64,000 nt of DNA from a virus. Below the pieces are notes generated by a model. That model searched no databases, had not been told where the DNA came from, and saw only the letters and a list, made by a program, of their open reading frames with translations. A program made the position numbers and the translations under genes. Positions 7,420 through 49,300 of this stretch are shown piece after piece. Where the stretch lies: the IMG/VR virus record IMGVR_UViG_3300011115_000183, positions 1 through 64,000 of that record, one strand, 5' to 3'. Within the stretch, counting starts at the first letter, position 1; each line of letters opens with the position of its first letter.

Positions 7420-8073
7420 TTACGCTTTATATACTTGCCAAAAAGCTTCAACAGCTTGTTTGTATTTCTCAGGATTAGCCGTGGCGTCACCACGCTGAGA
7501 CTGTTTCACCTTTACAGATTTCTCTTGTGCATCGAATATCTTCTTCATGGTATCAATGAACAATACCACTTTGCGCTCAACCTTGATACCTGAGCGTATT
7601 CTAAGAATCTTCTCAGCCTTATCTACCAACTTACCTAACTTATCAGATATATAAGTGAGGTGAGCCTTGCGAACCTTTTCAACCACAGCCTTGAGGTTCG
7701 GGTTGTCCTTGAAATCCGTGCCCATTTGATTAGCCGTGAAACTCATGGCGTAATCTATCGTGGCTTCGATCTTTTCAACCTTCTTGTTTGCAAGGTGTTC
7801 TGGCGTGGCGGGGAAATACTGTCCGTTGATAACCGCATAGGTGACAGCCTTGTATATCTCATGATGAGCTAACGAGTAGCCGTCACGCAAGGATTTGATA
7901 TCCTCAGTTGAAACATCCTTGAGTACGGGAAAACCCTTGATATGTTCAAGGGCTGATTCAGCGCATGAATCAATACGGTTCTCAGCCTTGCCATGCTGTA
8001 AACCGATATCGGTGATTGAAACAAAAGCCACGGGGTTGATAGCTTGAGCTATCAGAGTTTTGCGATTTGACAT
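7420..8073 (-). CDS. tandem paralog A, 217 aa, unknown function
   Basis: The protein is predicted soluble and mostly helical. It matches its neighbour (8307-8975) over the whole length, for example IKGFPVLK, YAVINGQYF, EKVRKAHLTY and KSVKVKQSQRGDATANPEK. No enzymatic motif is evident and I do not know the family. The gene is a one-gene transcription unit: a consensus promoter with an inverted repeat at the start site and a strong terminator. Such strong independent control of two paralogs suggests abundant early products, perhaps host-takeover or DNA-binding proteins, but that is a guess. Confidence 0.85.
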   Translation of the reverse strand: MSNRKTLIAQAINPVAFVSITDIGLQHGKAENRIDSCAESALEHIKGFPVLKDVSTEDIKSLRDGYSLAHHEIYKAVTYAVINGQYFPATPEHLANKKVEKIEATIDYAMSFTANQMGTDFKDNPNLKAVVEKVRKAHLTYISDKLGKLVDKAEKILRIRSGIKVERKVVLFIDTMKKIFDAQEKSVKVKQSQRGDATANPEKYKQAVEAFWQVYKA

Positions 8074-8306: not shown

Positions 8307-8975
8307 TTACTTAGACTTTGTTGGCATTTGACCATATGTCAGCCAGAATGCTTTGACTGCCTCTTTGAACTTCTCAGGGTTTGCAGTGGCATCGCCTCTC
8401 TGGGTCTGTTTAACTTTCACAGACTTTTCCTGTGCGGCAAAGAAGTCGCCGACTGTATTTACAAACAGAACTATTTTGCGTTCTGCTTTGATACCCGCAC
8501 GATCTTTTAAGATCGACTCTGCTTTGCGTACCAGTTTGCCCAGTGTGTCCGACACATAAGTTAAATGTGCTTTGCGTACTTTTTCAACGATCTTTTTCAA
8601 TTCAGGACGATCTTTGAATTCGGTTGCCATTTCATTCGGTGTCCAGACCATTGCCCAGTCGATCGTTGCGTTGATCTTTTCGACTTTGTCGTTTGCCAGA
8701 TGATCGGGTGTCGCCTCAAAGTATTGACCATTAATGACTGCGTATGTCTTGGGGACATACACACTGCGATGATGCAGGGAATAACCGTCTCGCAGTGCTT
8801 TGACGTTTTCCTCTGAGACTTCCTTAAGTACTGGGAAGCCTTTGATTGTGTCCAGTGCATACTCAGCACAGGCAGAGATCTTATTCTCTGCTTGACCATG
8901 TTGCACTGCGATGTCTGACACAGAAGTGAACTGCACTGCGACTGCTTGGGCAGTCTGGGTTTTTGCTTTAGCCAT
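8307..8975 (-). CDS. tandem paralog B, 222 aa, unknown function
   Basis: I chose the ATG giving MAKAKTQTAQ, which has AAGGAA seven bases upstream; a TTG two codons earlier is too close to that site. The protein aligns end to end with tandem paralog A, and the best conserved part is the C-terminal KSVKVKQTQRGDATANPEKF. It differs in having a basic N-terminus and a short extra tail (GQMPTKSK). It has its own promoter, inverted repeat and terminator. The function is unknown; divergence between the copies implies an old duplication kept by selection. Confidence 0.85.
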   Translation of the reverse strand: MAKAKTQTAQAVAVQFTSVSDIAVQHGQAENKISACAEYALDTIKGFPVLKEVSEENVKALRDGYSLHHRSVYVPKTYAVINGQYFEATPDHLANDKVEKINATIDWAMVWTPNEMATEFKDRPELKKIVEKVRKAHLTYVSDTLGKLVRKAESILKDRAGIKAERKIVLFVNTVGDFFAAQEKSVKVKQTQRGDATANPEKFKEAVKAFWLTYGQMPTKSK

Positions 8976-9006
8976 TTTCAATTTCCTTATAAAGGGTTTA
9001 CAGGGT

Positions 9007-17430: not shown

Positions 17431-18342
17431 ATGGCTATTTCACGTGCACAACTACTTAAAGAACTCCTTCCCGGCTTGAACGCTTTGTTTGGTTTGGAAT
17501 ATGCTCGCTACGGTGAAGAACATAAAGAAATTTATGAAATCGAAACCTCTGAGCGTTCTTTTGAAGAAGAAACGAAACTGTCTGGTTTCTCCGCTGCTCC
17601 TGTCAAAAACGAGGGTTCTGCCATCGCTTATGACAATGCACAGGAAGCATGGACTGCTCGCTACAACCACGAAACCATTGCTTTGGGTTTCTCACTGACC
17701 GAAGAGGCCATTGAGGACAACTTGTATGACAGCTTGTCTGCTCGCTACACCAAAGGTCTGGCCCGTGCTATGGCATATACCAAGCAGGTTAAATCTGCTG
17801 CTGTTCTGAATAACGGTTTCTCTGCCCAGTTTGTTGGCGGCGACGGCGTTGCTCTGTTTAGCACTTCTCACCCGCTGGTCAACGGTGGTGTCAACGCCAA
17901 CACTCCATCTACTCAAGCCGACTTGAACGAGACTTCCTTGGAAGCCGCCGTGATTGCTATCGCTGCTTGGACAGATGAGCGCGGCTTGTTGATCGCTGCT
18001 AAACCCAAGAAGTTGATTATTCCTCCTGCATTGCAGTTCGTGGCTACCCGCCTGTTGGAAACCAGCCTGCGTGTTGGTACAAACAACAACGATATCAATG
18101 CAATCAAGAATAACGGTTCGATTCCAGAAGGTTATACCCAAAACCACTATCTGACCGATACCAACGCTTGGTTCCTGACCACAGACGTACCTAACGGTAT
18201 GAAGATGTTCGTTCGTACTCCGCTGGCTAACAGCATGGACGGCGACTTTGACACCGGTAACGTGCGTTACAAGTCCCGCGAACGTTATTCGTTTGGCTTC
18301 TCTGACCCATTGGGAATGTTCGGCTCGTCCGGTTCATTCTGA
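17431..18342 (+). CDS. major capsid protein (Mu gpT-like)
   Basis: The 303-residue product has an acidic N-terminal helix region and a core similar to Mu gpT-type capsid proteins: NHETIALGFSLTEEAIEDN (about 71-89), ARAMAYTKQV, a loop ending in LFSTSHPLVNGG, and a C-terminal KSRERYSFGFSDP. Codon use here strongly favours well-used codons, as expected for the most abundant virion protein. A strong terminator follows directly, which separates it from the next gene. The family assignment within HK97-fold capsids is moderately sure; the role is well supported by position. Confidence 0.85.
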   Translation: MAISRAQLLKELLPGLNALFGLEYARYGEEHKEIYEIETSERSFEEETKLSGFSAAPVKNEGSAIAYDNAQEAWTARYNHETIALGFSLTEEAIEDNLYDSLSARYTKGLARAMAYTKQVKSAAVLNNGFSAQFVGGDGVALFSTSHPLVNGGVNANTPSTQADLNETSLEAAVIAIAAWTDERGLLIAAKPKKLIIPPALQFVATRLLETSLRVGTNNNDINAIKNNGSIPEGYTQNHYLTDTNAWFLTTDVPNGMKMFVRTPLANSMDGDFDTGNVRYKSRERYSFGFSDPLGMFGSSGSF

Positions 18343-19218: not shown

Positions 19219-19240
19219 GGGGGCTTCGGCCCCCTTCTTT
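19219..19240 (+). terminator. rho-independent terminator, GGGGGC-TTCG-GCCCCC
   Basis: A perfect 6-bp G/C stem with a stable TTCG loop is followed by TTCTTT, ten bases after the stop of the upstream gene. Confidence 0.9.
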
Positions 19241-19259
19241 GGATTTAAAGGAGTATCGT

Positions 19260-22139
19260 ATGTCAGGTGGATGGACAGTAGTTGACTCAGCGTCAAACAA
19301 ATCAATTCCGATTCAAGGTCTGAACGCCGTTGCTGGCGTCGCACCTTATATCACTCCCGCCCCAAGCAATCTTGATCCGGTGGGTAAATTCCGTGTATCT
19401 CAACCACAAGCGTTGATTGATACCGACTTTGAATATGGCACACAGCCAACCAAGTGGGAATCTATTTGCTTGCAGAATAACCGCCAAAGCTGTTATTACA
19501 TTGCTCAGTCACCCTATACCGGTATCACTTCAATTACGGGCGACAACTCCGCGTCAACCAGAGTAATGACGATTACTGCATCAGGAGGATTTGCCCAAAG
19601 TGGTGTAGCTTCTCCAATTCCAAGTGGTACGCCGCTTTATATCCAAAACGCTACTGATCCAAACGCAAACGGATGGTGGTGGGTTGTTACCGGCAGCGCA
19701 ACAAGCGTTACCGTCATCACAACCAATGCGGTTGCTATTTCCAATAGTTACAACGATTCATTGACATACGTGTATCCGGGGTACTTTTATTCCAATGCTG
19801 GTATTCAGTTGTCTTCAACTTCAGCGTTTACCAACGTCACCACAACCATTACTTGCACCACGGCAAATGCTCATGGCCTGACGAAAGATTCGTTCATCTA
19901 TGTTAAGGATACAACCTCCAGTGCCGGTGGAGCTATTAACGGCGCTTGGATAGTTGCAACTGTTCCTACAGCTAACACATTTACATTTGTTGTTCCAACA
20001 GCCCCAACAGGTACATTGACCAACACAGCAAATACAACAAGTTTGTATGCACGCCCCGCTGGTTATGTTGAGCCTCGTTCATTTGATGGTGGTGTAGCAT
20101 TCTCTGCTGGCGCGGCTGTTCCAAACCAACAGTTGATCCGGCAGTCTCGTCGTTACTTCCGTTACCAGTCTGGTAAAGGCATTCAGTTTTCGACTGGCTC
20201 ATCATTGAAACCGGCTTTGTTTGTGACTTCAATCACCAACACTTCCTTGTCTACAAACATTACTGTTACATCCCGCTACCAGCACAATCTGGCTGTTGGC
20301 GCAAAGATTCAAGTTGTTGGCTGTAACGAGGGCGCATACAACGGCAACTTTACAATTGTGACTGTGCCTACGCCTACAACATTCACATATACGTCTTTGT
20401 CAGCCCCTCCCGGTACTGTAGCTACAGGTTTTGGTATCCGAGTGACTCCAGTCTCTTGGTATGGCTCTGCGAATCGTGTCGGTCTGTTTGATAACCAGAA
20501 TGGTATGTTCTTTGAGTTTGATGGGCAGACTCTTAATGCGGTGTTGCGAAACTCTATCAACCAATTAGATGGTACTGTTTCTGTTACCACTGGTGTTGCC
20601 ACAGTGACGGGTACGAGTACTCGCTTCAGTACTCAGTTGTCCCCCGGTGACTTTATTGTCATTCGTGGGCAGTCATACCGTGTTGTGACCATTGCAAGTG
20701 ATACAGATTTGCGTATTACGCCTGAGTATCGTGGTGCAAGCATTACTGGCGCGATTGTTTCCAAAACAATCGAAGTCCGTATCCCACAAAGTAAATGGGC
20801 AGATAAGTGCGATGGTACTGGCCCATCTGGGTACAACATTGACTTATCCCGGATGCAGATGTTCTACATCGACTATTCTTGGTACGGCGCTGGTGTTGTT
20901 CGTTTTGGTTTCCGTGCAACCAATGGCGTAGTGACTTACGTGACCCAGATACAGAACAACAATATACAGTTTGAAGCTTATATGCGTTCTGGTAACTTAC
21001 CTGCTCGTTACGAGTCGGTTGGTATTGCTCCAGTCACTTTCATCACCTCCAACGTAACAACCACAACTACTACGAACTCTGCGGCTATTGCTGTGGCAGA
21101 CGTTACGATTGCGTTGACTGATGCTTCTACATTCAACAATACTGGTGTGGTAAAAATCAGCAATGAGTTGATTTACTATGCAAGCAAATCAAGTAATAAC
21201 TTGGTTGGTTGTATCCGTGGTTTTGGTGGCACTACCGCATCAAATTATGTGGGTTCTACCACTGTCAGCCCGTCGTCTATTGACATCGCGGATTCCAGCA
21301 AGTTCCCTCCTACTGGCACTATCAAAGTGCAGGGTTCGGGTGGTACAGCCAACATTGAGTACATCGCCTATACAGGCAATGATGGTAGTCTTTTCTATGG
21401 CCTCACCCGTGCACAAACAGGTGGACAAGCCGCCGCTCAGTCATTTACTTATTCTGCAACTGCTCCTGTTGAAGTCTCTCTTGCTTCTCCTGACACTGTT
21501 CCTTCCCTGTCTCACTGGGGTTCATCAGTCATCATGGACGGTAGCTTCAACGATGACAAATCGCTGATTTTTAACTACGGCACAAACAGTCAGTTGCAGT
21601 TGCTGACAACCCAAACGCAAGTATGCCCAATTTTGGCTATTCGTATTGCGCCATCCGCAGACAATGGTCAAACAGGTTTATTTGGCGTGAAAGAAGTTAT
21701 CAACCGTATGCAATTGCAGTTATTTGAATTGGGTGTTGTGACCTCCGGCCCTGTTTTAATTACTCTTATTTTGAATGGGTATGTAGCAGGTGGTACATGG
21801 TCTACTTGGAAATCTCCTATTTCATTGGGTTCACTTGCATACACATCTTCACTAGCTCAAGTTGCTTTTAATACTCTGAACTCTGGCACGTTGCTTGGTG
21901 GTGAGTCTATTGCGGCTGCGTACACCAATACCAACGGACAAACCACTTTGGACTTGACTCAAGTACGAGACATTGGTAACTCTATTCTTGGAGGCGGAAC
22001 TTCCAGTACTGTTACTACTGGATTTGCAAACCAATATCCCGATGGCCCAGACATTATTTATGTTTGCGCTACCAACGTGGTCTTGTCAGCAACACCAACC
22101 ATCCTTGCTCGTTTGAGCTGGAAAGAAGCACAGGCTTGA
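19260..22139 (+). CDS. large beta-rich virion protein, 959 aa
   Basis: The ATG chosen (MSGGWTVVDSASN) has AAGGAG seven bases upstream. The protein is a string of beta modules. Residues about 189-243 and 329-380 each resemble a T-x-A-H-x-L-x-x-G/D module ending in TFTF or TFTY. Residues about 612-668 and 670-727 resemble a module with the pattern GxVKIxxExIxY and CxRGxGGT. The second type also occurs in the head-tail adaptor and nozzle proteins of this phage. The C-terminal part (PDGPDIIYVCATNV) looks like a separate domain. It is probably an exposed head or tail component; exact location is unknown. Confidence 0.7.
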   Translation: MSGGWTVVDSASNKSIPIQGLNAVAGVAPYITPAPSNLDPVGKFRVSQPQALIDTDFEYGTQPTKWESICLQNNRQSCYYIAQSPYTGITSITGDNSASTRVMTITASGGFAQSGVASPIPSGTPLYIQNATDPNANGWWWVVTGSATSVTVITTNAVAISNSYNDSLTYVYPGYFYSNAGIQLSSTSAFTNVTTTITCTTANAHGLTKDSFIYVKDTTSSAGGAINGAWIVATVPTANTFTFVVPTAPTGTLTNTANTTSLYARPAGYVEPRSFDGGVAFSAGAAVPNQQLIRQSRRYFRYQSGKGIQFSTGSSLKPALFVTSITNTSLSTNITVTSRYQHNLAVGAKIQVVGCNEGAYNGNFTIVTVPTPTTFTYTSLSAPPGTVATGFGIRVTPVSWYGSANRVGLFDNQNGMFFEFDGQTLNAVLRNSINQLDGTVSVTTGVATVTGTSTRFSTQLSPGDFIVIRGQSYRVVTIASDTDLRITPEYRGASITGAIVSKTIEVRIPQSKWADKCDGTGPSGYNIDLSRMQMFYIDYSWYGAGVVRFGFRATNGVVTYVTQIQNNNIQFEAYMRSGNLPARYESVGIAPVTFITSNVTTTTTTNSAAIAVADVTIALTDASTFNNTGVVKISNELIYYASKSSNNLVGCIRGFGGTTASNYVGSTTVSPSSIDIADSSKFPPTGTIKVQGSGGTANIEYIAYTGNDGSLFYGLTRAQTGGQAAAQSFTYSATAPVEVSLASPDTVPSLSHWGSSVIMDGSFNDDKSLIFNYGTNSQLQLLTTQTQVCPILAIRIAPSADNGQTGLFGVKEVINRMQLQLFELGVVTSGPVLITLILNGYVAGGTWSTWKSPISLGSLAYTSSLAQVAFNTLNSGTLLGGESIAAAYTNTNGQTTLDLTQVRDIGNSILGGGTSSTVTTGFANQYPDGPDIIYVCATNVVLSATPTILARLSWKEAQA

Positions 22140-22142
22140 TGT

Positions 22143-22454
22143 ATGTCAACTCCAGCATGGCAGCGGAAAGAAGGGAAGAATCCCAACGGGGGTTTGAACG
22201 CCAAGGGGCGGGCCTCCGCGAAGAAGGAAGGGATGAATCTCAAAGCTCCACAACCCGAGGGCGGCAGCAGGCGAGACTCTTTCTGCGCCCGAATGAAAGG
22301 CATGAAGTCGAAACTAACGAGCGCAGAAACAGCAAGGGATCCAGATTCGAGGATTAATAAGTCCTTGAGAGCATGGAGCTGTGCAGAAGGTGGTTATGTC
22401 AGCGCAGCCGATGGTTGTGCTACCAAAGGAAAAACAAAAGGCAGGTTTGTTTAA
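22143..22454 (+). CDS. DUF6321-like basic protein with RGKTRG-type tail
   Basis: The N-terminal 75 residues (PAWQRKEGKNPNGGLNAKGR, then FCARMKGMKSKLTSA and DSRINKSLRAW) match the DUF6321 pattern as I remember it: a Lys/Arg/Gly-rich phage protein of unknown function. The C-terminus AADGCATKGKTKGRFV is the first of several related tails in the next genes. It is highly basic, so binding to DNA or an acidic virion surface is plausible. Confidence 0.65.
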   Translation: MSTPAWQRKEGKNPNGGLNAKGRASAKKEGMNLKAPQPEGGSRRDSFCARMKGMKSKLTSAETARDPDSRINKSLRAWSCAEGGYVSAADGCATKGKTKGRFV

Positions 22455-22693
22455 TGGACATCAACACAATCTGGTCTGCCTGCCTTTCAGCATTGCTTGG
22501 TGGCTTTTGGTTTTTCATCAAAGAGAAATTTGAAGATGTCAAACGAGTTGAGCGACTACTCAACATAACCCGTGAGGAGATTGCCCGTGATTACACTACT
22601 CAAGCAGAAGTGCAAAGAATTACTGACCACATTGACCAAAGGTTTAATCGCCTTGAAGCAAAGATTGACCAGCTTATTCAAGCGGGGAAGTGA
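22454..22693 (+). CDS. small membrane-anchored coiled-coil protein, 79 aa
   Basis: The ATG overlaps the stop of the upstream gene (TAATG); a longer frame reads through that gene's coding sequence. The product has one N-terminal membrane span (TIWSACLSALLGGFWFFI) followed by a long charged coiled-coil (VQRITDHIDQRFNRLEAKID). It resembles small anchored phage proteins of spanin or holin-accessory type, but it lies far from the lysis genes, so the role is open. Confidence 0.65.
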   Translation: MDINTIWSACLSALLGGFWFFIKEKFEDVKRVERLLNITREEIARDYTTQAEVQRITDHIDQRFNRLEAKIDQLIQAGK

Positions 22694-23130
22694 TGCCAAG
22701 CAGTAGTGCAAAGCAACACAGATTCATGGAAGCGGTGGCCCACAACCCGGCGTTTGCCAAGAAAGCAGGAGTTCCACAATCCGTGGGCAAAGATTTTTCA
22801 ACTGCCGACAAAGGCAAAACTTTTAAAAGAGGTGGCGAGATGGCTACAAAAATGGATCCCAAGATGATGGCAATGATGGCTGCTAAAAAACGTGGCATGG
22901 GCGCTGGTAGAGGCGTACCGGGCGCAATGGGCGCTGCTCCAGCCGCCCCCGCTGCCCCTGCTGGTATGGGTATGATGAAAAAAGGCGGTAACGTCAAGAA
23001 GATGGCAACAGGTGGTCTGGCTGCGGCTCACAAAGCGGCTGATGGCGTTGCTTCCAAAGGCAAAACCAAAGCAAAACAAATTTCCATGCCCGGCAATAAG
23101 GGTATGAAAAAAGGCGGCAGAGTCTGCTAA
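22693..23130 (+). CDS. Lys/Gly/Met-rich protein with KGG and RGKTRG-type motifs, 145 aa
   Basis: The N-terminus (AKQHRFMEAVAHNPAFAKKA then GVPQSVGKDF) is a conserved pattern in small phage proteins. The rest is low-complexity with repeated KKGG units (KRGGEM, MKKGGNVKKMATGG, MKKGGRVC) and one ADGVASKGKTKAK motif. The ATG overlaps the upstream stop (TGATG). It belongs to the cluster of basic proteins that share the DGxAxxGKTxx motif. No known enzymatic role. Confidence 0.65.
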   Translation: MPSSSAKQHRFMEAVAHNPAFAKKAGVPQSVGKDFSTADKGKTFKRGGEMATKMDPKMMAMMAAKKRGMGAGRGVPGAMGAAPAAPAAPAGMGMMKKGGNVKKMATGGLAAAHKAADGVASKGKTKAKQISMPGNKGMKKGGRVC

Positions 23131-23139
23131 GGAGCAATC

Positions 23140-24306
23140 ATGGCAAAACCGATGAAAAAATCAAGACGTTTCGCTGAGGGCGATTTAGTCACCGGCACGA
23201 CCAATGTGCGTACTCGTTCTGATGACGTTATTGGCGATACAAATCCTCGAACTGGGGTTTATACCCCCGGTAGCTATGATAGGAACCGAGCGGCTGGTGA
23301 ATCAAATCTCAATGCTGTAAAAGGTCTTTGGAACCGTATTACCGGCGGCTCATCTGATGACTCTGGTACTGGTACTAGAGGGATTAAAGCATCCGTCAGC
23401 GACACCAAGTATGAACCAACAAAAAGCTCAGTAGCTGATTACATTGGTAAGTCTACGGAACCAAAATCCGCAGAGTCTAAATCTTCGGGATTTAATTCCT
23501 CGAGTGTAAAAGGAACATCAGCCTTTGGTGATTATTCTGGGACAAGTAAATCCGACGACTCTGGGTCAAAATCATCAGCTCCTGAAACAAAGCCTAGTAG
23601 CAAATTGCCTATAACGGTTGAAGGTGACTATCCTAAAAAGTCTGATACAAGTACAGATACTGATGAAAAACCAGCAGCTAAAAAAGAAGACAAAAAACCA
23701 GCGGCTAAGGCTACGGCTAAAACAACCGATAGCTCATCAAAGAATTACGGCGCTGCTGTAGGTTCACAGCCTACTAAAAAGTCAACTGATACCACAGATA
23801 GTTCATCGAAGAATTACGGCGCTGCTGTAGGTTCACAGCCTACTAAAAAGTCAACTGATACCACAGATAGTTCATCGAAGAATTACGGTTCTGCTGTTGG
23901 CTCACAACCAACCAAGAAAGCGGCTGAGGAGAAGAAGCCTGAAACCAAGGCTGCTGCAAAAACAGATTACTACCGTGGCGCAGATGGCAAGATGCACCCA
24001 AAAACACCCGAACCTGCTCCCAAGTCAGAAGATGAATGGGGTACTCAGAACATCAAGCGCAACTTGCAGAATGCACCGGGCGATGTCATGAAGGGTCTCA
24101 AAAAAGTTGGGTCTGCACTGTCTAACTTTGAAACCATAGCAGAGCGTCGTTCACGTGAAGCTAAGGAAGCTAAGAATAAACCTGTGGCAAAACGTAGCGG
24201 CGGCGCAGTCAAGAAGATGGCTTCAGGCGGTTCTGTCAAATCATCTGCGTCCAGTCGTGGGGATGGTATTGCATCCCGTGGCAAAACCCGTGGAAAAATC
24301 TATTAA
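23140..24306 (+). CDS. low-complexity protein with 23-residue repeats and RGDGIASRGKTRG tail
   Basis: The 388-residue product is Ser/Lys/Asp/Thr-rich and probably disordered. Residues about 196-264 are three tandem 23-residue repeats built on DSSSKNYGAAVGSQPTKK; the first two unit pairs are almost identical in DNA. The C-terminus has KRSGGAVKKMASGG and SSRGDGIASRGKTRGKIY, as in the next two genes. It is the largest of the cluster. Its composition suits a flexible virion-associated or DNA-binding tail, but nothing shows this directly. Confidence 0.65.
   Translation: MAKPMKKSRRFAEGDLVTGTTNVRTRSDDVIGDTNPRTGVYTPGSYDRNRAAGESNLNAVKGLWNRITGGSSDDSGTGTRGIKASVSDTKYEPTKSSVADYIGKSTEPKSAESKSSGFNSSSVKGTSAFGDYSGTSKSDDSGSKSSAPETKPSSKLPITVEGDYPKKSDTSTDTDEKPAAKKEDKKPAAKATAKTTDSSSKNYGAAVGSQPTKKSTDTTDSSSKNYGAAVGSQPTKKSTDTTDSSSKNYGSAVGSQPTKKAAEEKKPETKAAAKTDYYRGADGKMHPKTPEPAPKSEDEWGTQNIKRNLQNAPGDVMKGLKKVGSALSNFETIAERRSREAKEAKNKPVAKRSGGAVKKMASGGSVKSSASSRGDGIASRGKTRGKIY
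23725..23931 (+). repeat. three 69-bp in-frame tandem repeats
   Basis: Units start at 23725, 23794 and 23863. Units one and two differ by only a few silent changes near the start; unit three diverges after about 27 bases. The near-identity implies recent copying and possible length variation between isolates. Confidence 0.85.
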
Positions 24307-24308
24307 TC

Positions 24309-24845
24309 ATGGCAAAGTACAACCCAGCAAAACGTGGTTTAGATGAGCAAGAACTCGAAGGCGGCGGCGCGGGTGCAGGTATGGGCCGTTCTAACAACAC
24401 TACGTTAATGCCCCGATTAAATAAGCCCGAAATAGAAGGATATACATACCGTTCTCCAAGCCAAACAAACGCTAGAAGCTTGCTTCCACATCCGCGTGAA
24501 AACGTGGTTGAATCGCAAAGAGCAGATATTGATCGTATTGGTCGAGGTCTTAATGCGTCTGGTAAAACAGAACGGGGTCGTCTTGCGCAGCAAGAGGCCG
24601 CAGGACGGGCAATTACACGCACAACAGGCAGAGCGGCGGGCGCAGGTGCTGCGGGAATTGCCGGTGCAAAAATTGGCGAAAGGATGCGGGGTAGTGACTC
24701 TGAAGATAGAAAAGACGACGAAACTCCTTCTCGCGCAGGCATGGGTGAAATCATGTCTGGTAAAGGTATGGCAAAAGGCGGTTCTGTTTCCAGCCGTGCA
24801 GACGGTATTGCTCAGCGGGGTAAGACTCGCGGAAAGATGTGCTAA
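24309..24845 (+). CDS. basic protein with ADGIAQRGKTRG tail, 178 aa
   Basis: The gene begins two bases after the previous stop. The N-terminus MAKYNPAKRGLDEQELEGGG resembles that of the next gene (MGRFTKHGMDDQPLEGGG), so these two are probably paralogs. A Gly/Ala-rich helix (AAGAGAAGIAGAKIGERM) could associate with membrane or oligomerise. The C-terminus KGGSVSSRADGIAQRGKTRG is shared with its neighbours. The function is unknown. Confidence 0.65.
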   Translation: MAKYNPAKRGLDEQELEGGGAGAGMGRSNNTTLMPRLNKPEIEGYTYRSPSQTNARSLLPHPRENVVESQRADIDRIGRGLNASGKTERGRLAQQEAAGRAITRTTGRAAGAGAAGIAGAKIGERMRGSDSEDRKDDETPSRAGMGEIMSGKGMAKGGSVSSRADGIAQRGKTRGKMC

Positions 24846-24848
24846 ATC

Positions 24849-25301
24849 ATGGGACGCTTTACAAAACATGGAATGGACGATCAGCCGCTTGAGGGCGGCG
24901 GTCGGGGCGGCGGTGGCGGCGGTGCTACGCCAAGAGTCAGCGGAAAGTTAGCTGGCGCTACCGCTGCAACTATGGCGGCTCCTATGTTGGCTTTACCATT
25001 AGCGTCAGAGTATATGGAAGCTAAAACAAAAGACAAAAAAGAGCGTGAAGCCGCAGATGAGGTAAAGCGCGAGTCTCGCGGTACAGGCATGTCTTCCAAA
25101 GAGCAACAAATGGTTCAAGAAGCTGATGATGCCAAGATGCAGACCAAAAAAGACAAGGCCTACAACGCTGCTAAAACATATCCTGAGAACTTCTCCAAAG
25201 GCGGTACAGCCTCTACCCGTGGTGATGGTATTGCCCAACGTGGTAAGACCAAGGGCACGATGGTGATGTGTGGCGGTGGCATGGCTCGGGGCAAACGATG
25301 A
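24849..25301 (+). CDS. basic protein with RGDGIAQRGKTKG motif, 150 aa
   Basis: Layout matches the upstream gene: a DxQxLEGGG start, a Gly-rich stretch, an Ala-rich hydrophobic helix (LAGATAATMAAPMLALPLAS), a charged coiled segment, then KGGTASTRGDGIAQRGKTKG. Here the motif is not terminal but followed by TMVMCGGGMARGKR. The hydrophobic helix followed by a charged segment would allow membrane contact. The role is unknown. Confidence 0.65.
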   Translation: MGRFTKHGMDDQPLEGGGRGGGGGGATPRVSGKLAGATAATMAAPMLALPLASEYMEAKTKDKKEREAADEVKRESRGTGMSSKEQQMVQEADDAKMQTKKDKAYNAAKTYPENFSKGGTASTRGDGIAQRGKTKGTMVMCGGGMARGKR

Positions 25302-25559: not shown

Positions 25560-25874
25560 ATGTCTCAATTCACTCTTGAACCCGAAGAAGACCAAATGCT
25601 GCTGAACGCAATCCGCGCTCATGCGATGCACTATGAAGCCATGCACGGATCCCCGGAAACGGCTATGTTGGCGTTAGCTGAGAAGCTTGTAAGCCAAATG
25701 CCTGTGCCTGAGCCAGAAGATTTGGACGAGCCAACAGAAGAAGAAATTGAAGCTCACTTTGCTTCTATGGAAGTCCAGCCTGAAGACAAAGCTGCAATAG
25801 CCGCTTTCTTGGATGACGTTCCCCATGAGCAGTACACCCACGAAGACGACATCGAACCAGACGGACACGAATAA
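25560..25874 (+). CDS. acidic protein, 104 aa, unknown function
   Basis: In contrast to its neighbours this product is strongly acidic, with PEPEDLDEPTEEEIEAHFAS and DDIEPDGHE. An N-terminal helical part (EDQMLLNAIRAHAMHYEAMH) could be a small folded unit. AAGGA precedes the start and the stop overlaps the next gene. An acidic partner for the basic proteins, or an assembly factor, is conceivable. Confidence 0.6.
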   Translation: MSQFTLEPEEDQMLLNAIRAHAMHYEAMHGSPETAMLALAEKLVSQMPVPEPEDLDEPTEEEIEAHFASMEVQPEDKAAIAAFLDDVPHEQYTHEDDIEPDGHE

Positions 25875-26815
25875 TGGCCTATACGTCCTCTACCGCTACC
25901 TTTGACCTTGACCTCAATGAGATGATTGAGGAAGCGTATGAGCGGGCGGGTTTAGAGGTTCGTACTGGTTATGAGTTTCGTACGGCACGGCGTTCACTGA
26001 ACTTGCTCACCATCGAGTGGGCAAATCGTGGCATCAACTTATGGACGGTGGAAGAGGGGGTCATACCCCTTGTGACTGGACAGCCGGTATACCCGCTACC
26101 AGCAGACACGATTGACTTGCTTGACCATGTCATTCGTCAAAACAACGGCACAGCGGCGACTCAGACGGACATCAACATTTCCCGTATCTCTGAGCCGACG
26201 TACTCCACCATTCCCAACAAGCTGACAACCGGACGTCCAATCCAAGTCTGGATCAACCGCCAGACGGCGAAGACAAACTCGACGCTTACTACAACTGTAG
26301 CTGCGAGTGGAAATACACCCAGTGTGTCAACCACGGACACCACGATCTATGTGGCCTCTACCGCAGATTTACCGTCTACTGGGTTTGTCAAGATTGGTAC
26401 TGAGACGATCGGATATACCAACGTGACTGATACTCAGTTGTTGAACTGCGTTCGGGCACAGAATGGCACAACTGCGGCTACACATGCCACAGGGGATTCG
26501 GTCTATATCCAGAACCTGCCTTGTATCAATGTCTGGCCTGCTCCCAACTCTGGTGGTGACTACACCTTTGTGTACTGGCGGCTTCGTCGTATCCAAGACG
26601 CTGGTGGCGGTGTGAATATCCAAGATATACCTTACCGTCTGATTCCTTGCATGGTGGCAGGGCTGGCGTTTTACGTCGGTTCTAAGCGGCCTGACGTTTC
26701 CCCTGACCGTGTGGCGTTTTTAAAGTCGGAGTACGAGCAGCAGTGGCTGCTGGCATCTCAAGAAGATCGTGAGAAAGCCCCAGATCGGTTTGTCCCAAGG
26801 CAGTTGTTTTACTGA
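25874..26815 (+). CDS. head-tail adaptor (tail tubular protein A-like) with inserted beta module
   Basis: Residues 11-55 (DLDLNEMIEEAYERAGLEVR and RTARRSLNLLTIEWANRGIN) and the C-terminal MVAGLAFYVGSKRPDVSP region are the helical parts typical of the T7 gp11-type adaptor that docks under the portal. Residues 154-212 interrupt this with a beta module (STGFVKIGTETIGYT and LLNCVRAQNGTTAATH) that also appears in the 959-residue protein and the nozzle. Conserved order (adaptor before nozzle) supports the call. The module may decorate the connector surface. Confidence 0.7.
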   Translation: MAYTSSTATFDLDLNEMIEEAYERAGLEVRTGYEFRTARRSLNLLTIEWANRGINLWTVEEGVIPLVTGQPVYPLPADTIDLLDHVIRQNNGTAATQTDINISRISEPTYSTIPNKLTTGRPIQVWINRQTAKTNSTLTTTVAASGNTPSVSTTDTTIYVASTADLPSTGFVKIGTETIGYTNVTDTQLLNCVRAQNGTTAATHATGDSVYIQNLPCINVWPAPNSGGDYTFVYWRLRRIQDAGGGVNIQDIPYRLIPCMVAGLAFYVGSKRPDVSPDRVAFLKSEYEQQWLLASQEDREKAPDRFVPRQLFY

Positions 26816-27223: not shown

Positions 27224-27394
27224 ATGGACACAAAGCAAGTAAAACAGATTGCAGACAAAGAAGTAAATAAGCATGAGAAGCGTATGCACCAAGGCATGGC
27301 TCCAACTAAGCTTAAAAAAGGTGGCGTGACAGGCGACATGATGAAGTCTATGGGACGTAACATGGCTCGCGTTGCAAATCAAAGGGGCAAATAA
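27224..27394 (+). CDS. small Lys/Arg/Met-rich protein, 56 aa
   Basis: The product begins MDTKQVKQIADKEVNKHEKR and continues KLKKGGVTGDMMKSMGRNMA to end in RVANQRGK. AAGGAG lies six bases before this ATG; an in-frame ATG one codon earlier is too close to it. The stop overlaps the next ATG. KKGG and GRNxARVANQ are patterns I recall from small phage proteins of unknown function. It adds a member to the basic KGG-containing set. Confidence 0.65.
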   Translation: MDTKQVKQIADKEVNKHEKRMHQGMAPTKLKKGGVTGDMMKSMGRNMARVANQRGK

Positions 27395-27678
27395 TGGCTA
27401 AATTCAGCATGAAACAAGGCGGCAAAGAAGTCGGCAATGCTGACGTTTATGCCAAGCCCCATACCATGAGCGGCGGTGAAGTCAAGACGCAAAACGATGG
27501 CAGCTTCCGCCCTGATCCAAATACATTGGCGGCGAATGAAACTGTGCCCGGTGGCAGCATACCTGCTCGGCGTGTTTCACTTGGTGATCGCGTTCGTGAG
27601 CCTAAGACAACTGGTATCAAAATTCGTGGTACAGGCGCGGCAACTAAAGGCACAATGGCTAGAGGCCCAATGGCATGA
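27394..27678 (+). CDS. small protein, 94 aa, with GTGAATKGTMARG tail
   Basis: The product starts MAKFSMKQGGKEVGNADVYA and contains MSGGEVK. Its C-terminus (RGTGAATKGTMARGPMA) is a distant variant of the RGDGIAxRGKTRG tail of the 22-25 kb cluster. Its overlaps with the neighbours on both sides support expression. The function is unknown. Confidence 0.6.
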   Translation: MAKFSMKQGGKEVGNADVYAKPHTMSGGEVKTQNDGSFRPDPNTLAANETVPGGSIPARRVSLGDRVREPKTTGIKIRGTGAATKGTMARGPMA

Positions 27679-32050: not shown

Positions 32051-32695
32051 ATGGCAGTAACAGTAAGCGGTACAAACATTACGTTCAATGACGCGACTAC
32101 GCAGTCAACTGCGGCTACGACTGGCTTTTCCAACATGGTTGTGATTACCACTACCAACGCTTCGTACTCAATCCCAGCAACCAAAATTAAAGTTACTGTT
32201 GTTGGTGGCGGAGGTGGTGGGGGTGGCCCAGGCGCACAAGGCGGTGGCGGGGGCGGGGGAGCAGTAATTCAAATATTTTCTGGACTCACCATTGGTAACA
32301 CCTTGAATGTGACTGTTGGTGCGGCGGGGGGAACGACACCGACGGCTGGGGGTTCTTCCAGTGTTGCTTCTGGGACTCAATCTATTACAACTATTACCGC
32401 AACTGGAGGGGCGGCTGGTGATAACGTTGCAGGTGGGGCTGGAGGAGTAGGTTCTGGCGGTCTTTTAAACATTGGGGGCCAAGGCGGCACGCAGGGCGGC
32501 GACACCGGCACAAGCCCTGTTATAAATGGAGGCGGCGCAGGCGGTAGTAGTATTCTCGGTGGTGGTGGTAACGGTACTTACGGTACTAACGGAGTTGCTG
32601 GGCGTCTTTATGGGGGTGGAGGTTCTGGGGCATCTGCTGGTGGCGGTGCAATCGGCGGCGCAGGCGCTAAAGGCGTTGTAATTGTGGAGTATTAA
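32051..32695 (+). CDS. glycine-rich tail-tip adhesin-like protein (paralog 1)
   Basis: The N-terminal 45 residues (VSGTNITFNDATTQSTAATT) are shared with the paralog at 32916. The rest is very rich in Gly, with runs such as VVGGGGGGGGPG and GGAGGSSILGGGG, and ends KGVVIVEY. Glycine-rich domains of this type occur at phage fibre tips, where polyglycine helices pack to present variable loops to the receptor (as in T4-like gp38 adhesins). Two copies in a row suggest alternative or joint tips. Confidence 0.7.
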   Translation: MAVTVSGTNITFNDATTQSTAATTGFSNMVVITTTNASYSIPATKIKVTVVGGGGGGGGPGAQGGGGGGGAVIQIFSGLTIGNTLNVTVGAAGGTTPTAGGSSSVASGTQSITTITATGGAAGDNVAGGAGGVGSGGLLNIGGQGGTQGGDTGTSPVINGGGAGGSSILGGGGNGTYGTNGVAGRLYGGGGSGASAGGGAIGGAGAKGVVIVEY

Positions 32696-32915: not shown

Positions 32916-33551
32916 ATGGCAGTAACAGTAAGCGGCACAAATATCACATTCAACGATGCGACCACGCAGAGTACGGCTGCAACTACGGGCTTCTCCAACA
33001 TGGTTGTATTGACTTCAACCAATGCTTCGTATTCAATTCCAGCAACCAAAATTAAACTTACGGTTGTTGGTGGCGGAGCTGCTGGTGTTACTCAAGGCGC
33101 TAGCGGAAGTTGTAACGTCACGGGAGTAGCAGGTGGCGGTGGCGGTGGCACAGCTATAAAAATTTTATCTGGTCTTACTATTGCTAATACATTAAACATT
33201 ACGGTTGGTGCGGCGGGATCAAGCTCAACTGTTGCCTCTGGGACTCAATCTATTACCACCATAACCGGCGGGGCCGGAACCAGTGGTGGAGCTGGGGGTA
33301 TAGGAACTAACGGAGATTTAAATATTAGAGGTGGCAGTGGCGCTCGGGGGGGTCAAGATGCTGGCAATTTTGGCGGAAATGGTGGTAACTCCTTTTTTGG
33401 TGGTGGCGGCCAAGGTGGCACTGGTAATGGTGGTGCAGGTGCCGCAGGTGGATTATATGGCGGCGGCGGCGGTGGCGGCACATCTCAATCAGCTCCCCCA
33501 AACGGTACTGGTGGTGCTGGGGGTCAAGGTGTTGTAGTTATTGAATATTGA
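32916..33551 (+). CDS. glycine-rich tail-tip adhesin-like protein (paralog 2)
   Basis: The first 45 residues are nearly identical to paralog 1, even at DNA level around the start codon. The Gly-rich body differs in loop sequence (for example GSCNVTGVAGGGGGG and RGGSGARGGQDAGNFGG) and ends GVVVIEY. Conserved ends with changed loops are what one expects from adhesins that diversify to match receptors. AAGGAGC precedes both paralogs. Confidence 0.7.
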   Translation: MAVTVSGTNITFNDATTQSTAATTGFSNMVVLTSTNASYSIPATKIKLTVVGGGAAGVTQGASGSCNVTGVAGGGGGGTAIKILSGLTIANTLNITVGAAGSSSTVASGTQSITTITGGAGTSGGAGGIGTNGDLNIRGGSGARGGQDAGNFGGNGGNSFFGGGGQGGTGNGGAGAAGGLYGGGGGGGTSQSAPPNGTGGAGGQGVVVIEY

Positions 33552-43390: not shown

Positions 43391-46300
43391 ATGGCACTTG
43401 ACATTGAAAAAGCAAGGGCGGCTGGCTACTCTGATGCGGAAATTGTCGATCATCTTTCACAGTCGTCAACGCTGGATGTAAACAAAGCCCGCAAAGCTGG
43501 GTACTCTGACTCTGACCTTCTTCAACATTTTAAAAGTGTTGAGCCTATACCTACGCCCAAACAAGAAGCCAAGGTGCTTCCCGCATCAGACACGTCCAGC
43601 GACTTTATGCGCGGGCTGTCCAACTACTTTCCGCAACTGCAAGAACTGGGTGGCGCAACGGAAGCATTGGCGGGTGTTGGCTTGCATAAGATTGGCGCAA
43701 CCGATACCGGCAAGTCCCTCATAGAGGGTGGCCTTAAGACTATGGAGTCTGGGAAAGCCAAGCAGGTATCCAAAGAATCTGATGAGTTCCTCAAAGCATA
43801 TGAAAAAGGTATTGGCACTGTTCTTACTGATTGGTTGCCATATCAAATGGGCGCGGGTGTTGCCAACGTAGCTGAGACTCTTGGCTTCTCTGCCCTTGGC
43901 GCATTGGCTGGTACGGCTGTTGAACCCGGCGTTGGCACTGTTGTGGGAGCATTTGGCTCTGCCTTATCCAAGACAATGGTTAAAAAAGGAATTAAAGAAG
44001 CCGCCGAAGCCGTAGCTGCAAAAGAAGGTAAAGCAGCCGCTGATGAGTTTGTCAAAGCTGAGACCAAAAAACTTCTTACAGAGCAACTTGAAAAAGGTGT
44101 ATTGCAGACCTACTCGAAAGCGGGCGCTAAATCTATTGGCTCGACCGCAGGTATGGTTGGTCAAGCTGGTCTGCATGGTATGGGTGAGGTGGGTAGCCGC
44201 GTCTTTGATGAAGAGAAGCGCCGCGCTGAATCTGAAGGCCGTGAATTCAAGCCAGAGGATATTGATATGGGGAGGGTAGCCCCCGCTGTGTTGGTACATG
44301 GCGTAGCGGACTACTTCTTCAACAAGATTGGCCTTGACTCCATGAAAATTGGGTCAGACGCTACCAAGTCTTTGGCGATGGATATTGCCAAACGGATTGC
44401 GGTTACAGGCGCAAAAGAAATCCCTGCTGAAGAACTTCAGACCCTTGCGGAACGCTATGGCGCTGGTCTGTCTTTGACTGACAAAGAAGCTCTCAACGAG
44501 TACATCAACACGGCAGCCGCATCTGTTGGTATGTCTGTTGTACCCGGTGGTGTGGGCGGTGCGCGTACGCACATGGCAGTGGCTAAGACCAAGGCGTTGG
44601 AAGAACAACAAAAGGCTCAGCAAAATACTACGCAGACTACAACTGGAACTCAAACTACGGAGACTGCGCCTAAGGTTGACGCAGATACCGCAGCATTGCT
44701 GACCCCTGCTACACCTATTGGACAAAAAACAAAACCGGCTGAGACTACCCCTGCGACAACAGAAGTCAAAGCTGATGAGACTACCCCTGCGGCTACAGAA
44801 ATTAAAACGGATGAGACTGCGCCCCCTACCGAGAGTAGAGAAGCAACAGTCGATCGTCTTATTCAAGAAAGAACTGCTGAGCTAGAAGAGCTTGAAAAGA
44901 AACGTGAGGCTTTAGGCTTTGCACCAAAGTTGCGCCGTAACAGTTCACAAAAAGTTAGGGAAGCAGTAGCAGCAATTGAAGAATTAGAAAAAGAAATAGG
45001 CGGAGTAAAACAAGCCCTATGGTTTTTGCATACAGGGAAAGAAATAGATAAAGAAAAGGGTCAAAATGTTAATGAACCTATCGCAAGTGCAGGTGGAGCA
45101 GGCGCTACTGTGGCTGGCAAACCCGGTGCTGTCGTCACCACCGGAGGAACTACTACAACTCAATCAGACAGAGTGGTTGATACTGGAACACCTGCTACAG
45201 ACACTGGTGCAGGAAAGGCAATACAGCCCGCTACATTAACTGACGAACAGAGGATGCTCTCAGAGCTTAAACCGCCTGAGCGCATTGACACGACTCCGGG
45301 TTATGTAGCCACTGAACAAAGCGGCGAGGCAAACCTCAAAGCTGCAATGGAGTTGGCTGCTCAATATGAAAAAACGGCAGATGAAGACTACCAAAAGAAT
45401 TTGGCTGAATCCAAGGTAAATGAAAAGGGCAAGCCAAGAAAAATACCACAGCATGAAATTACTGCTGAGATGCAGGAAGAGTATGACCTAACCCGTGAAG
45501 CTAAACGTGAAGAAGGTGTGGTTATCCCTGCATGGAATGATCTGACCTCTGATGAGAAAGACGTCTACTTTGACAATATTAGACAAAACACAATTGAAGA
45601 ACACAATACCGCAGCAGACACACTCGATGCGTACCGCAAGAAGAAAAGTGCGGATAAATTAAATCTCACTACAGAGCAGCAACGCTTTGTAAACGCCTAT
45701 GAGCAGAACCGCGCCATCAGCAGCAAGTTGTTTGGTGTAGAGTTCCCTGCATGGGGCGATCTTAATACTGACGATAAACAAGTTTACCTACAACAGATCA
45801 TCAGTAATGCTGGCTTACAGCAGGACGTAGGCTTTGCACACCTTGGCGCACATCTGCTCCAAAAAGAACGTCGGATGACCAATGACCAGAAACACGCTGT
45901 CGTGTTGCGTATGGTTGAGGTGCAGAACAAGATTGAGCAAGAACATAAACAGAACAAAGAGAAGTACGACAAGCTCAATCAAGCCAGCCAGCGAACTTCT
46001 GTCCAAGGGCTTGTACCTGATGCTGTACTTGCCCACATAAAGGGTAACAACATCCAAGGCGTGTTGCAGTTCCTGCGCACTTCTGCAAACAATAAGTTCT
46101 TCCGAAATATTGCTCAGGCAATCTTCAGCATGAAGCTGAACACTCAGATTAAGATGATAGAGAAGCTACCCGGTAAAGACTTAGCCATCTATGACCCAGC
46201 TTCAGACACGATCTTTGTGACTCCATTTGGCGCATCTGAAACCGTATTGATGCACGAATTGGTACATGCTGGCACTATTAAGGTATTAAATTTATTTCTT

Positions 46301-49300
46301 ACTGGAAAATACAAACAATTAACGCCCGAACAAATTGATGCAGCGGAACAACTGCAAAGCATCATGGATGACAGCAGACAGTTCTTTGCCAAAAAGTTTC
46401 CTGAGGCATATAAAAACTTGTATGAGTTTGTCAGCTACTCCATGACTAATAGGTCTTTTCAATTAGAGTTAGCCAAACTACGTCAAAGTGAAAAGCGAAT
46501 TGAAGCAACGATTCTGCCTGAGAAGAAATCCATGTGGTCTGAGTTCAAGCTGAAAGTGGCTGAACTGCTTGGCGTTACAAAAGAGTTGTTCAAACGTGGC
46601 AAGCTCAACATGGAAGCTCCTATCAATTACCGGATGGAAATTGAAGCTGCGTTTGAAGACATTTTGTCAGTACCTAAAGCGGGTGAGATACAGATGAAAC
46701 CATTGCCCGCTACTGGGCCAAGCAATGGTATTGAGGGTGAAAACTCTGCGTACAACCCAGACCGCAATGACGCGCCGGACGGTAAAAGCTTTGTAAAAAA
46801 GTTGTTTACAACGGCTGAAGGCTGGAGACGAATTGCTACATGGCTTGTAGACAGGCGCACTGAAGCAAAATACTTGTTTGATACATACTACCTTGCAGGT
46901 AAGATTTCACGGGATTTGACTGGCAAGTTCAACAACTTCTATGAATGGGCAGTCACCAGCGCGGCGTTGGGTGAGAATGAGTACATCAACCGTGTACAAG
47001 ACACAGAGAACAAACTGCATAACCAAGTAATGAGTTATGCAACGCTGATTGGGCAAGATTTAAAGTCTGCGTTAAACCGCTTACATAGAATTGCTGAAGC
47101 CCGACATGAGCCAGAGCGTCGGTTTGTCAAGTGGATGCTTACCGTACCTTTGAGCCAGCAACCTCTTCTTGAACAAAACGGTATACACATCAGCCCTGCT
47201 GAACGTCGCGTGCAGATTGTTGGCGATGAGCGATATGGCATACCCGGTCTGGTTCATAAAACAGAACTGACTGAACAACAGCTTATAGATTTGCGGGATG
47301 AATTGACTGCCCTTGCCAACACTTACGCTGATGCGTATGGAGACGGCCCCCGTGTTTCTGACAAGATTCGTGAACGCCTTAATAGACCTGCGCCTCCCGG
47401 TAAAGCTAAGCAGGGTATGCCTATAGATATTAACAACGGTGCATTCCAAGTACTGGGGCTTGAGCAGTCTGAAGTTGCTTTACGTCAGCAGCAAATTGCT
47501 GATATGAAGCAAAACAATCCTGCGGAATATAACGCTATTGAGGCGATATATGACACCATGCGTCAACTGCATAAGACCACAACAGAACTAAATAGAGAGG
47601 GCAACTACTGGTCTACGCCCGTGTCAAATCTTGTTGGGTTGTATGGATTTAAAGACTACATGCCATTCAAGGGTAAAGATCGCGGCAAGAAAACTGCTGA
47701 CGACATCCTTGACTTTGACAGCCGCCGCAATGGGCGTGAGATGCAGGAATTCCAAGCGGCTATGGATGGACGATTTAGTGTTTCTGATAACCCAATCTTG
47801 CAGAGCTTATCCGATGCCATTCGTGCAGCGGGGCGTGCGGGCCGCAAATACTACACACAGTCAATCAAAAATGCAATGGAGGATGGCATTATTCCGGGTG
47901 CTGTTACGCACTTTGAATTTTGGCAACGCAACAACATCGACATGAAGAAGTACAAGGGTGAGGATTACATCTTTCACTACAACAAAGATGGCTCACTAGA
48001 TATTCTCAAGATCACCAATCAAAAGCTGCTGAACTCTTTGCGGTATACCTACCAAGACACCAATACATTGCTTGACACTGCCAATCGAGTAACTGGCTTC
48101 TTTGGCTCGCTGCATACACGGTACAACTACAACTTTGCGCCGATGAACTTTTTGCGCGACTCGTTGTTCAACACATTCAACATTGGCGCAGACCGTGGCC
48201 CTGCTGCGGCGCTTCAGTACGCCACATCAATGGCGGCAAACATTGTTGCCAACAACGGCATAGCCAAAGCGTGGAAAGTTGCTTCCTTACATGACCGAAG
48301 CGACCCTGAGAGTAAAGCACTGCTTGCCAAAATGGTAAAAGAAGATGCCTACGTGAAGAACATGGTCGAGTACCTTGAGAACGGCTCAAAGACTTCTTAC
48401 ACACAAAGCTTTTCTTTAAAAAATAATTTGGAAAAGCTGGCTGAATCCACTGGCAAGTCACGCACGATTACCAAACTGGATCAGTTCAACACACTGATGG
48501 ATACATGGAACAACATGTTTGAATTCACTAGCCGCGCAGCGGTGTATGCCCAAGAGAAAGAGCGTGCCTTAAAAGAACAAATAGCGAACGGCCTCTCAAC
48601 AACGCCCGGCCCCAATGGTCAGATGTCTGCGGCTGAAAAAGCAGCGGCAGTCCAAGCGGCTACGTATGCAAAAGAGATGACCAACTTTGAGCAGAAGGGC
48701 ACGTACAGTCGCGGCATGGGTGCGTTGTATATGTTTATCCGTCCTTCAGCGATCAGTGCCAAACGCTCCATTGAAGCCGTTGTACCCGCCTTCCGTAACA
48801 TTGACGACGTGATAGCTGGCTTGCCCGCCAACATCCAGACTGACCCAGTAGCTGTGGCTAAGTTCCGTACTGCCTATGCTGAGAAGCAACGCAATGCAAG
48901 GATCATGATTACTGCCCTTTCTGGTATGGGATACCTCCTGTACATGATGGCAGAGATGATGTCTCCTGACGACGAACTGGGGCGCAATAATGTCAAGAAT
49001 GACAACATGCAGCAGTGGACTCGCAACGCACGATTCCACATCCCCAACAGCGTATCTGTACCTATGGGCTTGGGTAAAGATGTAGTCTTTCAAGTACCGT
49101 GGGGTTTTGGTATGGGAGCGTTTGCAGCGTCCGGTGCGCAAGTTGCGGGCATGATTCGAGGCAATACCTCCATCAAAGACGGTATGAGCAACATTGGATT
49201 GTCAATCATGCTGGACTCATTCCTACCAATACCGATATCTAAGATTCCCCCATCTGAAGCACCGTTGGCTTTTACCATCGACTCGTTGATGCCCACTGTG

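Follow-up and report, generated by a model that had tools for sequence, protein, structure and literature searches.

A conserved C-terminal tag on small late proteins with unrelated bodies in one gene island of an aquatic podovirus group

Introduction

Why should several neighbouring phage genes encode proteins that differ in their bodies and share one C-terminal tail? The question was raised by a window of 64,000 bases (positions 1–64,000), nearly the whole of the 64,869-base IMG/VR record IMGVR_UViG_3300011115_000183. An initial annotation had noted five consecutive or near-consecutive genes for basic proteins with a common motif at or near the C-terminus, and had proposed a tag for sorting, docking, cleavage or nucleic-acid binding.

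Results

The five tagged genes

Five late ORFs on the + strand (22143–25301) carried the motif [RA][AG]DG[ICV]A.[RK]GKT[RK] in frame at the 3′ end. These were the only matches, exactly five, in the 64,869-base record, in which the reversed motif pattern gave none, and the shared tail is thus real. The genes, referred to here as P1 to P5, are not strictly consecutive, since an untagged gene for a holin-like membrane protein (22457–22693, + strand) separates P1 from P2; its 106 homologous ORFs were all untagged. Three of the five tags were exactly terminal, ending four residues after GKT[RK], with those of P2 and P5 extended by 19 and 15 residues, respectively.

P1 (22143–22454) is a DUF6321 domain protein of 103 aa that ends in GGYVSAADGCATKGKTKGRFV, the tag taking up the last 20 codons (22392–22451). 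It scored 66.8 bits against PF19846, above the Pfam gathering score of 28.5, as a full-length member. P2 (22690–23130; phrog_16759) starts with a ‘SKAQ’ N-terminal module of phiKZ-like phages, followed by a disordered linker, the tag ADGVASKGKTKA close to the C-terminus and a final Cys that was nearly invariant among 31 homologs. The tag with its extension occupies 23020–23127. In the AlphaFold model the N-terminal helices of P2 had a pLDDT of about 88, and the unstructured tail about 50. As a correction to the initial annotation, the bodies of P1 and P2 belong to known modules.

P3 (23140–24306) is a low-complexity protein of 388 aa ending in GDGIASRGKTRGKIY (last 20 codons, 24244–24303). Its body contains three tandem repeats of 69 nt (23 aa) at 23728–23906, which suggest recent expansion. 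P4 (24309–24845; 178 aa) contains a Gly/Ala-rich helix and ends in ADGIAQRGKTRGKMC (last 20 codons, 24783–24842); AlphaFold modelled it with low confidence (mean pLDDT 50, from 3 sequences alone). P5 (24849–25301; 150 aa) has the near-terminal tag GDGIAQRGKTKG and the tail TMVMCGGGMARGKR, tag and extension spanning 25206–25298. Within the fetched loci, the two homologs of P4 and the five homologs of P5 were all tagged.

Genomic context

The source record is an IMG/VR podovirus in which the terminase (10118) is followed by the portal (11913), a gene in the GroES position (14634), a scaffold-like gene (15057), the capsid gene (17431), the tag island, the adaptor gene (25874) and the tail and internal genes. 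Relatives have the same order, and the GroES position was assigned from synteny with their annotated co-chaperonins; the Pfam search with gene 14634 gave no match.

The major capsid protein (17431–18342, + strand; phrog_371) marks the upstream border of the island. It shares 70% identity with that of Planktothrix phage Pag-Yong1, 64% with phage DSL-LC04, 64% with Pelagibacter phage HTVC027P and 62% with HTVC023P. The families matched were Phage_capsid_4 and Mu gpT, and in protease-capsid fusion families the match covered the capsid portion alone. No separate protease gene was recognised in the window phage. The downstream border is the tail adaptor (25874–26815, + strand), whose homologs in the same place in Pag-Yong1 and DSL-LC04 are annotated as portal-adaptor or adaptor.

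Several other features of the genome were recorded. The adaptor and a 966-aa protein (19239–22139) have a similar stretch, T..I.V.....FPSTG.VKIG.E.I.YT, which may account for length variation of the adaptor. Neighbouring genes on the − strand (7420–8073 and 8307–8981) encode paralogous proteins, 217 and 224 aa long, for which no Pfam match was obtained. A glycine-rich pair (32051–32695 and 32916–33551), of which the first matched Gly_rich_2, has near-identical N-termini and is an apparent recent duplication. Polyvalent proteins of the LPD38 class (large polyvalent protein domain) are thought to be injected, and the 2191-aa protein at 43391–49966, which carries LPD38, is likely to be an injected multi-domain protein.

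Anatomy and conservation of the tag

Among 356 non-redundant tagged ORFs, the distance from motif to stop was exactly four residues in 216. The next mode was 11–16 residues, mostly of the P2 type, and about one third of the tags had an extension after the motif. The independent scan for the GHT variant gave the same four-residue spacing in 126 of 144 tags. For the terminal class, the consensus was KGG.V.SAS.R[AG]DG[IC]A[QKT][RK]GKT[RK]G[KR][MIF][VCI] followed directly by the stop. D−14, G−13 and the G-[KH]-T core were near-invariant. Positions outside the search pattern were also conserved, namely R−16 (88%), S−18 (85%), A−11 (95%) and G−4 (96%), with A−19 strongly conserved too, and conservation decayed upstream of −27. 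The tag measures about 20 residues, is rich in Lys, Arg and Gly, and in some cases ends in a hydrophobic residue (V, I or L).

When tags of the same genome were compared in pairs, codon positions 1 and 2 were 80% identical and position 3 was 43% identical. This freedom of the third position indicates that selection acts on the tag protein. Tags within a genome were slightly more alike than expected (similarity 0.707 versus 0.675; permutation p=0.0004), and GHT tags clustered by genome (27/88 versus 3/190). Both observations would fit a co-evolving receptor, but the dialect mostly follows phylogeny. The columns of the capsid, scaffold, portal and tail proteins were searched for covariation with the GKT/GHT dialect; none stood out and no credible receptor emerged.

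In the fetched loci cysteine, rare in the bodies, was common in the tag at −1 or at −12/−11. The two sites were nearly mutually exclusive within a tag (both in 1, one in 62 and 91; Fisher p about 1e-8). A disulfide-pair model was dropped, as the two Cys types did not pair across the proteins of a genome.

Two further tail arrangements were seen. A family (L334 to L363, for example L335 and L342) has an internal copy of the motif, GSNKLTKFGESAVQKRGHTKGKNLGDSG, and often a C-terminal tag 30–50 residues beyond it, giving two copies per protein. A small protein (27394–27678, + strand) has a second kind of tail, IRGTGAATKGTMARGPMA, in strictly terminal position. Its relatives, with the pattern [ST]GIK[IM]RGTGAATKG.MARGPMA at the stop, occur in many loci, one per genome, and 72 of 92 distinct matches stop exactly 8 residues past the motif. 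The core RGxGAAxxG recalls HTVC023P gp51 (YSRGGGAAVRGMGFKGVF), and the second tail is possibly related to the DGIA tag.

Distribution of the tag

A degenerate DNA pattern encoding DGIAxRGKT[RK]G was scanned over IMG/VR and over 84,980 bacterial and archaeal genomes (257 Gb). At least 120 IMG/VR stretches matched. The prokaryote genomes gave 2 matches against about 0.7 expected by chance. One of these (L126) was a MAG contig of phage origin, on which homologs of the capsid and adaptor accompanied four tags; the other (L127) was in an unrelated frame, leaving just one genuine match. The tag is far above chance, chance is excluded, and the motif is viral. It was not found in unrelated bacterial proteins of these genomes; equal frequency there was the refuting condition named in the initial annotation.

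Core homologs of this phage group were present in 117 of 120 loci fetched in the GKT scan, in 119 of 120 from the GHT scan and in 90 of 91 loci newly fetched with the internal variant (AVQKRG), which makes the tag group-specific. Among 18 scanned records, picked for motif or capsid, all had this capsid and 16 had tags, which without exception lay downstream of the capsid gene and on its strand; the reversed pattern had no matches in these records. Pag-Yong1 is a cultured phage bearing the tag (protein UMO75986.1). This exact tag was absent from the closest cultured relatives, HTVC023P, HTVC027P, CRP-901 and DSL-LC04, and is thus not essential for this capsid type.

The records of Pag-Yong1 (OL906435.1), MinM2 (OQ594354.1) and Pra-JY27 (PP438419.1) are each 65,014 long and gave the same capsid match. 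From this equality they may be one phage with differing stated hosts.

Searches of annotated phages by tblastn with the tag and with P4 gave nothing, and a PDB profile search with the tag returned no structure match, just seven-residue chance matches to trypsin. With one exact string, no description of the motif was found in the open-access literature, nor was any description of DUF6321 or Pag-Yong1.

Bodies and their turnover

The tag was confined largely to one interval: in the 74 loci holding both border genes, 148 of 160 tags lay between the capsid and adaptor genes. The 336 bodies formed about 114 clusters. They contain few Cys, Trp or His and are near neutral (median charge +5 over about 110 aa), so the term ‘basic’ suits mainly the tail (about +6/+7). 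Among 84 diverse tagged proteins, DUF6321 was the only convincing family match, with a few weak ones besides; in Padloc and Pfam searches of the 84 bodies, defence and counter-defence families gave single weak matches at most.

For DUF6321, 11 tagged and 124 untagged ORFs were found in one analysis, and 29 of 202 were tagged in a larger set. The untagged proteins stop at the final Cys of the domain (RAWKC), whereas the tagged versions continue into the tag. On these proteins the tag is an addition that is optional and cleanly set off from the domain.

In phage pairs with 85–90% capsid identity, the adaptor averaged 60% and a tail protein 56%. In the same pairs the tagged bodies, P2 (SKAQ) type left out, found a homolog in 3% of comparisons, and the best tag identity was 72%. 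Within the capsid-adaptor interval, orphans made up 14% of untagged genes versus 45% of tagged non-P2 genes. Low complexity may inflate this turnover estimate, although the numbers were the same with masking on or off.

Discussion

Possible functions of the tag

These phages carry a separable C-terminal tag, conserved at the protein level, on rapidly changing bodies encoded in one gene island of one phage group. The terminal spacing, the optional presence on DUF6321, the turnover of bodies and the conservation of the protein sequence strongly support the proposal that such a tail, shared by unrelated bodies, would be a separable tag for sorting or docking. A short, constant peptide that keeps its distance from the C-terminus, can be left off a complete domain and is joined to changing bodies within the structural block resembles a docking or loading tag. 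The two-motif proteins, the near-neutral charge and low Cys, Trp and His content of the bodies, the likeness of tags within a genome and the LPD38 polyvalent protein of the same phage were also counted in favour. Counted against docking were the column search that gave no receptor, the lack of a match among solved structures, the absence of this exact tag from the closest cultured relatives and the extensions on about a third of the tags. Cleavage, the third of the functions first suggested, found no support.

We therefore put forward, at a little under an even chance, that the tail is a C-terminal docking motif drawing variable, disordered late proteins into the particle through one common partner. 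Late in infection, a small, fast-changing set of mostly disordered proteins would be made from the head-tail gene island, and their shared tag would bind one common phage partner, presumably a protein receptor. Capsid or scaffold protein, on the inside of the capsid during its assembly, would be the likeliest partner; by analogy with T4 CTS and encapsulin cargo peptides, the capsid interior would also be the most economical one. Proteins with unrelated bodies could thereby enter the particle and perhaps be passed on to the next cell, where the bodies might serve in host takeover or counter-defence.

Binding to nucleic acid, also among the first suggestions, is possible but unlikely. The basic tail would then bind phage DNA (or RNA), and the proteins would condense with the packaged genome or travel with it, with no need of a protein receptor. 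Every tag is indeed strongly basic on a near-neutral body, the genes are late, and the column search gave no receptor. However, the acidic D-G pair (−14, −13) and the G-[KH]-T core, near-invariant as they are, and the fixed terminal position are more than charge requires. The change of K to H at −7, moreover, is tolerated and follows the genome.

Another explanation holds that the proteins are one fast-diverging paralogous family, in which the tail, such as a peptide for assembly or scaffolding, is the sole functional part and the bodies are unconstrained, drifting spacers. The bodies are of low complexity and mostly without homologs, and the repeats of P3 suggest recent expansion. Some bodies, however, are conserved domains (DUF6321 and the SKAQ module), and homologs of the P3, P4 and P5 bodies keep the tag in other phages, which makes this account quite unlikely.

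C-terminal motifs often serve as degrons or protease sites, and the tags that end in V, I or L would suit such a use. A recognition tag acting outside the particle, which would mark proteins in the infected cell for degradation or processing or bring them to a host or phage factor, is nevertheless improbable, since the tags are confined to the part of the structural block between head and tail genes and no separate protease gene was recognised.

The 3′ codons of the tag also provide the next gene with its ribosome-binding site: the next start usually lies −4 to +3 of the stop, an SD-like word was found in 186/199, and codon −4 was GGA or GGG in 72% when the next start was within 3 nt, in 33% when it was far and in 24% in bodies. 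That the tag is a gene-end module at the RNA or DNA level, spread by recombination at gene ends, is nevertheless very improbable. Such a module would account for part of the R-G-K end alone: the codons for D, G, I, A, K and T vary freely at the third position, and four-residue spacing is still the commonest class with a far next gene (43/114).

Returning to docking, its wider form is that a widespread aquatic podovirus group would use a universal C-terminal virion-loading tag for constant plug-in trade, via one island, of more than 100 kinds of small, disordered, effector-like proteins delivered with the genome. This we consider conceivable and rather doubtful. If the tag does load proteins, it would provide a compact C-terminal packaging signal that is easily fused to other proteins. 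It would also be a sequence handle for listing the variable cargo in a common group of aquatic phages, hardly any of whose small proteins have an annotation. With Pag-Yong1 as a cultured tag-bearer, the question of what such phages carry besides DNA becomes directly testable.

Comparison with known systems

Two of the bodies have counterparts elsewhere. The P1 body is a full-length DUF6321 (PF19846) protein to which the tag is an addition, absent from most members in the fetched loci. P2 shares its N-terminal 40 residues with the ‘SKAQ’ proteins (phrog_16759, 22033 and 25121) found in jumbo phages of the phiKZ-like and 121Q-like types. The jumbo-phage matches cover this module alone, to which the present group adds linker, tag and terminal Cys.

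For the tag itself, two targeting systems were compared. In T4, variable internal proteins share a capsid-targeting peptide, and relatives of T4 have different proteins with CTS-like leaders (PMC9026906). The likeness to the T4 internal proteins and Alt lies in small, variable late proteins with a short common targeting peptide. The CTS, however, is N-terminal, 10–19 residues long, of other sequence and removed by the prohead protease gp21, whereas the phage tag is C-terminal and gave no sign of cleavage. Encapsulins use a short C-terminal peptide on unrelated cargo encoded beside an HK97-fold shell gene (PMC7355545). The tag is likewise a short, conserved C-terminal peptide on unrelated proteins, and a putative HK97-type shell gene, judged from the capsid family matches, lies nearby. 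It differs in that the encapsulin peptide has no sequence resemblance to it, encapsulin cargo consists of folded enzymes, and binding of the tag to the capsid is putative. Being neither N-terminal as in T4 nor of encapsulin peptide sequence, the tag would at most work like both systems and is a member of neither.
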